A DNA stretch of 64,000 nt from Nitratidesulfovibrio sp. SRB-5 (GTDB taxonomy: Bacteria; Desulfobacterota; Desulfovibrionia; Desulfovibrionales; Desulfovibrionaceae). Location: NCBI RefSeq assembly GCF_019931275.1, contig NZ_JAIOTY010000001.1:1336650-1400649 (forward strand). Reading direction: 5' to 3'. This document shows positions 17,774 through 26,925 of this stretch, piece after piece (position 1 is the first letter of the stretch; each line of letters begins with the position of its first letter). The position numbers were made by a program, and so were the translations under genes. The notes beneath the pieces are model-generated. The model ran no database searches. It saw only the letters and a program-made list of their open reading frames with translations, and was not told the origin of the DNA.

Positions 17774-18826
17774 CTACCGAAGCAGCAGGCGAACACCGCC
17801 GGGCAGCGGTTCCAGCACTACGCCCACGGGGTAGGCGGGGTCTCCGGTTTCGGCCAGCAGCGTCGTGGCCGCGTCTACCTGGTCCGGGGATACGGCCAGC
17901 AGCATGCCGCCCGATGTCTGGGCGTCGAAGGCCACGTCGACCAGCAGCGGGTTGACGCCGGTGGCCACGTGCACATGCGTGTGGCAGTGGGCGCGGTTGG
18001 CGTGGCTGCCTTCCGGCACCAGCCCCATGCCAGCCAGTTCCGTCACGCCGGGCAGCACGGGCAGGGCGGCGGTGTCCAGGGCCACGGTGACCCCGGAGGC
18101 CACGGCCATTTCCAGGCAGTGCCCGCCAAGGCCGAAGCCGGTAACGTCGGTGGCGGCCTTCAGGCGAAGTTCGCGGATGACGCGGCCCGCGCCCTTGTTC
18201 AGGCGCGACGCCCAGCGGAACAGTTCTACCTCGTGCGCGTCGCAGCCGGGCCAGTTGGCCTTGACGGCGGTGGCCAGGATGCCGGTGCCCAGGGGCTTGG
18301 TGAGCAACAAGCGGTCGCCGGGGCGCAGCCCGGCATTGGAGGCGATGATCTCCGGATCGATGAGGCCGGTGACGGACAGCCCGTATTTGATCTCGTCGTC
18401 TTCCACGCTGTGCCCGCCCACCAGCGCGGCGCCCGCCTCGCGCAAAGCGTCGGACCCGCCGCGCAGGATATCGGCCAGAATGGATTCCGGCAGCCGCTTG
18501 ACCGGAAAGCAGACGATGTTCATGGCGCACCACGGCTCGCCGCCCATGGCGTAGACGTCGGACAGGGCGTTGGCCGCGGCAATGCGCCCGAAGTGGTACG
18601 GGTCGTTGACGATGGGCGTGAAGAAGTCCAGCGTCTGCACGATGGATTGCCCACCGGGCAGGCGCACCACGGCGGCGTCCTCGTTGTGCCGCGTGCCCAC
18701 GATGACCCTGTCCTCAACGGACGGGTCGCGCGGCAGTCCCGCCAGGATGCGCTCCAGGTCCCCCGGAGCCACCTTGGCGGCTCAGCCGGCGGCCTTGACC
18801 GAATCGACCAGACGGATGCGGCTCAT
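17774..18826 (-). CDS. selD: Selenide, water dikinase, selenocysteine-containing
   Basis: Makes selenophosphate from selenide and ATP for Sec-tRNA synthesis. The obvious open frame starts only at about 18772, but the same frame runs upstream through one UGA (18782-18784) to an ATG at 18826. The full product has 350 residues and begins MSRIRLVDSVKAAG-Sec-AAK. Aligned by eye with E. coli SelD, Sec15 falls on catalytic Cys17 and K18 on essential Lys20. Further landmarks are GTRHNEDAAVV, GGHSVEDDEIKYG and ATDVTGFGLGGH. A SECIS-like hairpin lies immediately after the UGA. The start overlaps the stop of the upstream LysR gene by four bases (ATGA). Confidence 0.93.
18739..18781 (-). promoter_or_regulatory. 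Candidate bacterial SECIS hairpin in selD
   Basis: One base after the UGA the minus strand folds into a long hairpin. CCGCC (18780-18776) pairs with GGCGG (18743-18739), GG pairs with CC above a bulged A, and an upper stem GCTCC (18769-18765) pairs with GGAGC (18755-18751) around a G-rich nine-base apical loop. Position and shape fit bacterial SECIS elements, which lie inside the coding region directly 3' of the Sec codon and bind SelB. Pairing was worked out by eye; folding energy was not computed. Confidence 0.65.
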
Positions 18827-19785
18827 GCCTTGTCCTTGTGACGGCCCTTGTTGTTGACCGCCTTGGCGTCCGTTGCATGGCCGTTGCGCAGGTGGCGGGT
18901 GTGCTCGTCGAGGAAGGCGGCAAAGGCCACCGCCGCCGGGAACTGGTGGCGCCGGGCGTGCCGCACCGAGTGGAACTGGCGCGCCGGGCGGCAATCGTCC
19001 AGTTGCAGTTCCACCAGTTCGCCACGGGCGATGCTTTCTGCCACGGCCAGGCGAGAGGTGGCGCTGATCCCAAGGCCCGCGCGCACGTACTGCACCACGG
19101 CCTGGGTGCTGTCCACCACCAGGGCCACCGGCAGCCGCCGCACGTCCATGCCCGCGGCGGCCAGCGCCTCGGCAAAGGTGCGCCGCGTGCCGGACCCTGC
19201 CTCGCGCATGATCCACGGCCACTGGGCCAGTTCCTCGACCTGCACGTGGCGCCTGCCCCCTGCAAGCTCCGGTGCGGCCACCACCACCAGTTCGTCGTCC
19301 ACCAGCGGTTCGAATACCAGGTCGGGGTGCGGATCCACCGCGCCCACCAGTCCCAGCATCAGTTCGCCGTCGGTGACGCGCTGCATGATGTCCGCCGTGT
19401 CGCCCACGCGCAGGTGCACGCGCACCGAAGGATAGGTGCGCACGAATCCGGCGATGACCTCCGGCAGGACGTGATGGGCGGGTATGGTGCTGCCGCCGAC
19501 CACAAGGTCGCCGCTGACCTCGTCGCGCAGCTGGCCGATTTCGGCCTCTGCGGCGGCAAGGCTGGCGAAAGCCTCAGACGCGCGCCGGTACAGCACCTCT
19601 CCGGCGGGCGTGGGCAGTACCTGCCGGCCCATGCGGTCCAGCAGGCGCACGCCCAGTTCCTTTTCCAGTGCAAGGACGTGCGCGCTGATGGTGGGTTGGG
19701 ACAGGAACAGGTCCGCCCCGGCCCGCGAGAAGCTGCGCAGTTCGTAGACCTTGCAGAATGCTTCGAGTCTTCTGAAATCCAGCAT
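18823..19785 (-). CDS. LysR-family regulator, probably of selenium metabolism
   Basis: 320 residues from the ATG at 19785. The N-terminal winged helix-turn-helix reads LEAFCKVYELRSFSRAGADL and LSQPTISAHVLALEKELG, followed by a type-2 periplasmic-binding-like effector domain (VGGSTIPAHHVLP, then WIMREAGSGTRRTF). A longer upstream frame exists but matches nothing. The stop overlaps the selD ATG in ATGA, so the two are translationally coupled. A LysR subfamily linked to selenium genes is known in anaerobes; membership is inferred from this coupling and the overall sequence. No clear Shine-Dalgarno sequence precedes the ATG. Confidence 0.85.
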   Translation of the reverse strand: MLDFRRLEAFCKVYELRSFSRAGADLFLSQPTISAHVLALEKELGVRLLDRMGRQVLPTPAGEVLYRRASEAFASLAAAEAEIGQLRDEVSGDLVVGGSTIPAHHVLPEVIAGFVRTYPSVRVHLRVGDTADIMQRVTDGELMLGLVGAVDPHPDLVFEPLVDDELVVVAAPELAGGRRHVQVEELAQWPWIMREAGSGTRRTFAEALAAAGMDVRRLPVALVVDSTQAVVQYVRAGLGISATSRLAVAESIARGELVELQLDDCRPARQFHSVRHARRHQFPAAVAFAAFLDEHTRHLRNGHATDAKAVNNKGRHKDKA

Positions 19786-22128: not shown

Positions 22129-22734
22129 ATGCCAGTTCCCATAGTCATCGAGACCTCGGGCCGTTCCGAACGCGCCTACGACATCTATTCGCGCCTGCTG
22201 AAGGATCGCATCATCCTGCTCGGCACTCCCATCGACGACCAGGTCGCCTCGCTCATCTGCGCGCAGCTGCTGTTCCTCGAATCGGAAAACCCCGAGAAGG
22301 AAATCTACCTGTACATCAACTCGCCGGGCGGCTCGGTGACGGCGGGCATGGCCATCTACGACACCATGCAGTACATCACCTCGCCCGTGGCCACCCTGTG
22401 CCTGGGCCAGGCCGCCAGCATGGGCGCGCTGCTGTTGGCCGCCGGTGCCCCCGGCATGCGCCACGCGCTGCCCAACAGCCGCATCATGATCCATCAGCCC
22501 TCGGGCGGCTTTCACGGCCAGGCCAGCGACATCGACATCCATGCCCGCGAAGTGCTGCGCATGAAGGCCAACCTGAACGAAATCATGGCCCGCCACACCG
22601 GCCAGCCCGTGGAGCGGGTTGCCGACGACACCGAGCGTGATTACTTCATGGGACCCGCCGAGGCCAAGGAATACGGCATCATCGACAGCATCCTCACCTC
22701 GCGGCGGGATGCCACGCAGAACCAAGCGAAGTAG
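22129..22734 (+). CDS. clpP: ATP-dependent Clp protease proteolytic subunit
   Basis: Serine protease of the ClpXP/ClpAP machine. 201 residues from the ATG at 22129, preceded by AGGAGAGG. The catalytic triad is S97 (GQAASMGA), H122 (MIHQPSGG) and D171 (DTERDYF). [18 protein letters not shown] is the oxyanion-strand region. The N-terminal frame extension is rejected because the family begins near [20 protein letters not shown]. clpX follows after seven bases. Confidence 0.98.
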
Positions 22735-22741
22735 GTACATC

Positions 22742-23995
22742 ATGGCCAATACCAAGGGCGGCTCGGAACGCGAGCTGCGTTGTTCCTTCTGCGGCAAGGG
22801 GCAGGACGCCGTGCAGCGCCTCATTGCCGGGCCCGGCGTCTACATCTGCGACGAATGCGTCTCGTTGTGCAACGAGATCATCGCGCAGGAGCACATCACC
22901 GAAACGGTGGAAGAGGGCAAGCTGCTCACCCCCGCCGAGATCAAGGCCAAGCTCGACGAATACGTGATCGGCCAGCACCAGGCCAAGAAGATCCTGTCCG
23001 TGGCGGTGCACAACCACTACAAGCGGGTCTTCTTCGCCAGCGCCCTTGGCGGCGAGGTGGAGCTGGAAAAGAGCAACATCCTGCTCATCGGTCCTTCCGG
23101 CAGCGGCAAGACCCTGCTGGCGAAAACCCTGGCCCGCGTGCTGAAGGTGCCCTTCGCCATCGCCGACGCCACCACCCTGACGGAAGCCGGCTACGTGGGC
23201 GAGGACGTGGAGAACATCCTGGTCCAGCTGCTCCAGAATGCCGACTACGACATCGAGGCGGCGTCCAAGGGCATCATCTACATCGATGAAATCGACAAGA
23301 TCTCCCGCAAGGGCGACGGCCCCTCCATCACCCGCGACGTGTCGGGCGAAGGGGTGCAGCAGGCCCTGCTGAAGATCATCGAAGGCACCGAAGCCAACAT
23401 CCCGCCCAAGGGCGGGCGCAAGCACCCGCAGCAGGAATTCATCAGGATGGACACCTCGAACATCCTGTTCATCCTCGGCGGGGCGTTCATCGGGCTGGAC
23501 AAGCTGATCGGCCAGCGCATCGGCGGCGGGGCCATGGGCTTCGGCGCCAAGGTGGCCACCCGCAAGGATCTGCCCTTCGGCGAACTGCTGGGCCAGGTGC
23601 ATCCGAACGACCTCGTCAAGTTCGGCCTGATTCCCGAATTCGTGGGCCGTATCCCCGTGGTCACCCACGTCGAGGAACTGAGCGAGGACGACCTGGTGCG
23701 CATCCTTACCGAGCCCAAGAACGCGCTGGTGCGCCAGTACCAGAAGCTGTTCGAGCTGGACAAGGTCAACCTGCGCTTTACCGCCAACGCGCTGAAGAGC
23801 ATCGCCAGCCAGGCCATCGAACGCAAGACCGGCGCGCGCGGCCTGCGCAACGTCATGGAATCGGTGATGCTCGACATCATGTACAAGCTGCCCTCGCAGC
23901 AGGACATCAAGGAGTGCGTCATCAACCGCGCCGTGGTGGAGAAAAGCCGCGAACCGGTGATGATCTACCACACCGAGGCCAAGACCGGCTCCTAG
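22742..23995 (+). CDS. clpX: Clp protease ATP-binding subunit ClpX
   Basis: AAA+ unfoldase that feeds substrates to ClpP. 417 residues. The N-terminal zinc finger uses C14, C17, C36 and C39. Walker A is GPSGSGKT at 117-124, Walker [10 protein letters not shown] follows, and the IGF-type ClpP loop region is represented by [11 protein letters not shown]. Sensor 2 lies near [12 protein letters not shown]. The start is the ATG seven bases after clpP, so the two are very likely one operon. Confidence 0.97.
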
Positions 23996-24003
23996 TGAAT
24001 GCA

Positions 24004-24039
24004 ACGGCGCGGTCCGCAAGGGCCGCGCCGTCATGGTTT
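24004..24039 (+). terminator. Probable terminator after clpX
   Basis: ACGGCGCGG (24004-24012) pairs with CCGCGCCGT (24023-24031), and TTTT follows after four bases. The T tract is short and displaced, so it may be a weak terminator. Confidence 0.6.
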
Positions 24040-24084
24040 TGTCCCGCGCCGCGCTGGTGCGGCCCCGTGGTGCCCGTGACGCTC

Positions 24085-24129
24085 ATGATGCCCATGATGC
24101 CCATGATGCCCATGATGCCCATGATGCCC
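24085..24129. repeat. Five tandem copies of ATGATGCCC
   Basis: Five perfect 9-bp units in a row (45 bp), with degenerate flanks on both sides. They lie between the clpX terminator and the lon promoter, outside any gene. Confidence 0.95.
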
Positions 24130-24320
24130 ATGACGTCCACGGGTTCCGACAGGCCCCGTTGTCCCCGTCGCAGGGGTCCGCCCCTTTCCCCCTCCACGGG
24201 AGAAACTTTCACGGGGGGCGCCCGCGCACGGGCCACCCGGCCTGGCGTCAACTGCGGATTTCCGCCCGGTACCCCGCAGGGTACCACGGCAATCTGCCCG
24301 GCGCCCCTTCAGTGGGTGCG

Positions 24321-24348
24321 TTGACAACGGGAATCGGGACACTAGTTT
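24321..24348 (+). promoter_or_regulatory. Probable sigma70 promoter of lon
   Basis: A perfect TTGACA (24321-24326), 16 bases, then TAGTTT (24343-24348), about 95 bases before the lon ATG. Confidence 0.55.
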
Positions 24349-26905: not shown

Positions 26906-26925
26906 GCGAAATGAATGTGAGAGCG

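Follow-up and report, generated by a model that had tools for sequence, protein, structure and literature searches.

The question raised by the selD gene of Nitratidesulfovibrio sp. SRB-5, encoded on the minus strand of the 64,000-nucleotide stretch analysed here (the window), is whether the UGA found in frame at its codon 15 is a stop, an accident, or a codon for selenocysteine (Sec), in which case the enzyme that supplies selenium for Sec would itself require Sec insertion to be made. The reading frame opens with an ATG at 18826-18824 and closes with a TAG at 17776-17774, with 335 codons between the UGA and the TAG, and translation through the UGA yields MSRIRLVDSVKAAG-U-AAKVAPGDLE... (Table 1). 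As the initial annotation had proposed, this read-through product is a full SelD: it matches the selD equivalog profile TIGR00476 over its length (profile positions 2-310 of 311) with 358.7 bits against a curated cut-off of 125, and its residues 3-344 align with 3u0o_A ("Selenide, water dikinase") at an E value of 1e-67. The latter, which we take to be E. coli SelD with Cys17, Cys19, and Lys20, belongs to the same family and differs from the window protein in having Cys17 and Cys19 where this has Sec15 and Ala17, whereas its Lys20 falls on Lys18. The activity of E. coli SelD needs Cys17 and Lys20, and at these two positions the window protein has Sec and Lys, respectively, exactly as assigned beforehand.

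Table 1. Positions of the features discussed, numbered from the first letter of the window.
Feature	Position	Strand	Basis and remarks
selD, selenide, water dikinase, read through UGA	17774..18826	-	350 residues + TAG stop; TIGR00476; 3u0o_A
In-frame UGA, selD codon 15, read as selenocysteine	18782..18784	-	aligned with Cys17 of 3u0o
SECIS-like two-part hairpin, directly 3' of UGA	18739..18780	-	fold and 71-sequence alignment
Apical stem of the hairpin, its conserved part (8 bp; GGA loop at 18761-18759)	18751..18769	-	92.8% of cells paired
LysR-type regulator, "selenium metabolism-associated" family	18823..19785	-	NCBIfam NF040786, 269.6 bits, cut-off 250 (longer ORF to 20043 scanned; start at MLDFRR, 320 aa, set by judgement)

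Were the UGA a true stop, SelD would have to start from the GTG at 18772 and would consist of 332 residues without the catalytic loop. An open reading frame of this size exists under translation table 11, so that, as had been anticipated, ORF callers would truncate the gene. The shortened protein, however, loses residue 15 and Lys18 together with 20 bits of family score (338.6 bits versus 358.7), which is the cost to the catalytic N-terminus that had been predicted for termination at this codon. Moreover, the residues flanking the UGA are similar from genus to genus, and codons 1-14, compared with seven other loci of the same genus, differ mostly synonymously (summed over the loci, 10 differences are synonymous and 2 non-synonymous), which argues against initiation downstream of them. 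Nor does the genome (4.12 Mb in 11 contigs, 99.98% complete) offer a substitute: one selD lies above the cut-off of 125 and no second SelD exceeds it, the other matches scoring 37.8 bits and lower, and the functional second copy that had been named in advance as evidence against Sec15 did not emerge above the family cut-off. Initiation at the GTG is thus very improbable.

The UGA is shared by most relatives of the strain. Among 348 genomes of the order, 345 gave some SelD match at E<=0.001 and 288 gave one above the cut-off; a single in-frame TGA and no other stop occurs in the match of 276 of these 288 (145/150 + 76/80 + 55/58), whereas PMC4561486 gives Sec for 19% of the SelD genes of its reference set. 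The remaining 12 comprise four matches that fall short of the N-terminus (G193, G057, G334, and G051, the last also with other stops) and eight that are stop-free (G116, G180, G177, G108, G339, G144, G173, and G151). The TGA was confirmed as the Sec codon by reading in 110 loci of the order, other genomes being counted by their in-frame TGA, and in these 110 the Sec position is UGA in 104 (window locus included), Cys in 5, and unassigned in one (L124). Forty loci from named records, some of which apparently come from the same genomes as the order set, so that they are not a separate sample, gave 34 U, 2 C, and 4 unassigned; L124 from the first set and L171, L172, L173, and L176 from the second failed to match the motifs searched for. 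The SelD proteins of Nitratidesulfovibrio liaohensis and N. oxamicus have U at the Sec position, and the named Nitratidesulfovibrio loci L139 (N. liaohensis) and L142 share with the window the same SelD N-terminal motif with U.

As expected of a selenoprotein gene, the conserved UGA thus aligns with Cys in homologues, both in the five Cys loci and in 3u0o. The same Cys loci (5/110), and the fact that TGA is one base away from TGC, are what could be said for the TGA having arisen by a sequencing error or through the recent mutation of a Cys codon to a stop; yet the TGA is kept in each of the seven other same-genus loci and in the large majority of the order genomes counted above, and a paired structure follows it on the 3' side, which makes an accident of this kind the least credible of the readings considered. 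With a threshold of 1e-60, SelB was found over the cut-off in 9 of the 10 TGA-type genomes chosen, compared with 3 of the 8 TGA-free genomes; the TGA-type genome that gave no SelB match at this threshold, G329, is a draft of 220 contigs, 96% complete. The TGA-free genomes in which no SelB match was obtained at 1e-60 are G151, G144, G173, G108, and G177, and in these selenium may be put to another use, e.g., in tRNA selenouridine.

A bacterial SECIS element is a stem-loop located 3' of the UGA, its loop beginning about 16-37 nt from that codon and having a G in one of its first positions, and its apical part is the one read by SelB. The window gene has a GGA loop 20 nt from the UGA, in a stem that shows paired changes among relatives. 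The 46 nt starting at the UGA (18784-18739) fold with -30.6 kcal/mol (z -4.13), a stability that none of 200 dinucleotide shuffles reaches and that is equalled or exceeded downstream of 3 of the 1471 TGA triplets on both strands of the window, namely those at 26918 (+) and 42184 (+) and, as the third, the selD UGA itself. The longer stretch of 127 nt from 18826 to 18700 is less exceptional (z -2.44, 3/200 shuffles as good). None of 300 synonymous versions of the 48-nt stretch, drawn from the codon use of the gene, folds as well (z -3.27). Across 95 Sec loci, which are relatives of one another and not independent, the same recoding gives a mean z of -1.89, with 49 loci at p<=0.05 and 46 above it; one of four Cys loci is at p<=0.05.

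The two parts of the hairpin fare differently in an alignment of 71 of the 95 Sec loci, without gaps and with near-identical loci dropped by eye. In the apical stem, two-sided changes occur in 5 of the 8 pairs, no shuffle out of 500 equals the observed value on any of the five measures, and at most 55.8% of cells, versus 92.8%, stay paired when the partners are shifted by 1 to 3 columns. The whole two-part structure is paired in 76.7% of cells versus at most 47.9% when slid; its pairs with two-sided changes (9 observed versus 10 at slide -2, with 21/500 shuffles reaching the observed value) and its further pair types (30 observed versus 31 at slide +1, 24/500) stand out less, and one pair of the lower stem is unpaired in 45 of the 71 sequences. 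Support is hence good for the apical stem and weak for the lower one: the two-part hairpin that had been described directly after the UGA holds for its fold and for its apical part, whereas conservation of its lower part is weak. A strong apical stem on a weak lower one fits a bacterial SECIS, given that the apical part is the one recognised by SelB. Rfam returned no family match at E<=1 within 18600-18950, a result that says little because Rfam is not known to include a family for bacterial SECIS elements in general. Among the Cys-type loci, a TGC-containing selD (L087, in G177, which has no SelB match at 1e-60) still shows a strong hairpin (z -3.46), perhaps the remnant of a SECIS in a gene whose Sec was replaced by Cys, as PMC1794560 describes for such cases.

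The genome also holds what is required to decode the UGA as Sec. All three genes proposed for look-up, selA (615.7 bits, cut-off 267.9), selB (358.6 bits, cut-off 242.25), and selC, are present, as expected of a genome with selenoprotein genes, so that the absence of selB or selC, which would have spoken against the proposal, was not observed. The tRNA-Sec model matches selC with 83.6 bits, and ARAGORN likewise calls a tRNA-SeC with anticodon tca. A second match just above the cut-off (49 bits, L002) is a tRNA-Ser according to ARAGORN, and the model matched 14 of 14 control genomes, above the cut-off in 5; for both reasons only the 83.6-bit match was counted. Sec decoding very probably serves further genes in this genome, as can be gathered from formate dehydrogenase alpha, for which four matches exceed the cut-off; each of them contains one in-frame TGA, and its U is embedded every time in the motif AR[IV]UH. 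One of these TGA-containing matches (L054, C1:366428-369055) ends at profile position 887, and a separate match that overlaps it (L055, C1:369048-369425) resumes the profile from 887, a pattern suggestive of a change of frame, whether genuine or caused by sequencing.

With this machinery and the hairpin in place, a UGA read by a near-cognate tRNA, or passed through failure of the release factor, so that a non-Sec residue is inserted, is also improbable, if slightly less so than a true stop. Such read-through is conceivable on the sequence as a minor event and we found no positive support for it, while the presence of the Sec genes, and of a hairpin that lies where a bacterial SECIS is expected and whose apical stem shows paired changes, argues against it. 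The evidence supports the reading of the window gene as a Sec-SelD that carries a SECIS-like element of the bacterial type, in which incorporation of Sec is predicted.

From the gene, its conserved UGA, the hairpin with its paired changes, the machinery genes, and the single SelD over the cut-off, all of which are directly legible in the DNA, we infer Sec incorporation, catalysis by Sec15, and a feedback that would operate as follows. Ribosomes would initiate at 18826 and pause at the codon-15 UGA, where SelB would bring Sec-tRNA(Sec) while attached to the hairpin immediately 3' of the codon. In the protein, Sec15, at the Cys17 position, and Lys18 of the N-terminal loop would handle selenide, and the selenophosphate made by SelD would feed SelA. 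Under Sec shortage, translation of selD would end after 14 residues, and the output of SelD would consequently depend on its own product. We assign to this model as a whole, with its single selD, its Sec15 directed by SelB and the hairpin, and its feedback, a probability of about 0.97.

The title of a 1996 paper by Guimaraes et al., as it stands in a reference list, already asks about autoregulation. Table 3 of PMC1794560 lists SelD as a selenoprotein of both Desulfovibrio vulgaris and D. desulfuricans, related sulfate reducers whose proteins belong to the same family, which bears out the precedent in anaerobes that had been invoked for the window gene; we know of no difference between these proteins and that of the window, the likeness being drawn from their listing as selenoproteins. 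According to PMC4561486 (Mariotti et al. 2015), Sec in SelD always occupies one position and is accompanied by a bacterial SECIS, and the prokaryotic Sec-SelD genes described there share with the window gene the fixed Sec position and a SECIS inside the coding region after the UGA. Because of PMC1794560, PMC4561486, and the 1996 title, Sec-SelD, its bacterial SECIS, and the idea of feedback are to be regarded as already known and in print. The same applies to the two respects in which the locus is instructive, i.e., as a clean example of a cell in which the one recognised source of selenophosphate relies on the pathway it supplies, and as a case where the active site of SelD would be lost to gene callers that take no account of UGA recoding; its use lies mainly in correct annotation and in providing a set of conserved SECIS-like elements from SelD genes. 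In sulfate reducers with [NiFeSe] hydrogenases, selD has diversified out of step with selA, selB, and selC, as reported in PMC4730141.

Upstream of selD lies the LysR gene, whose TGA overlaps the selD ATG by 4 bases (ATGA). By tblastn, 43 of 99 loci have a LysR relative on the upstream side of selD, i.e., 43 of 95 Sec loci and 0 of 4 Cys loci, the latter being only four; some loci had too little upstream DNA, and many with 1.5 kb of it gave no match. The distance from the end of the match to the UGA or Cys codon is 28 to 267 nt. The regulator might control selenium genes, and the two genes might form a translationally coupled selenium switch in which the ATGA ties both outputs, an arrangement that we consider unlikely. 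If it were true, at low Sec the ribosomes would leave selD at codon 15, selenophosphate would fall, and the co-encoded selenium-associated LysR would reset the selenium genes.

Elsewhere in the window, a short tandem repeat at about 23914-24324, which reads (MMP)n in one frame, overlaps the end of the ORF at 22619-23995.
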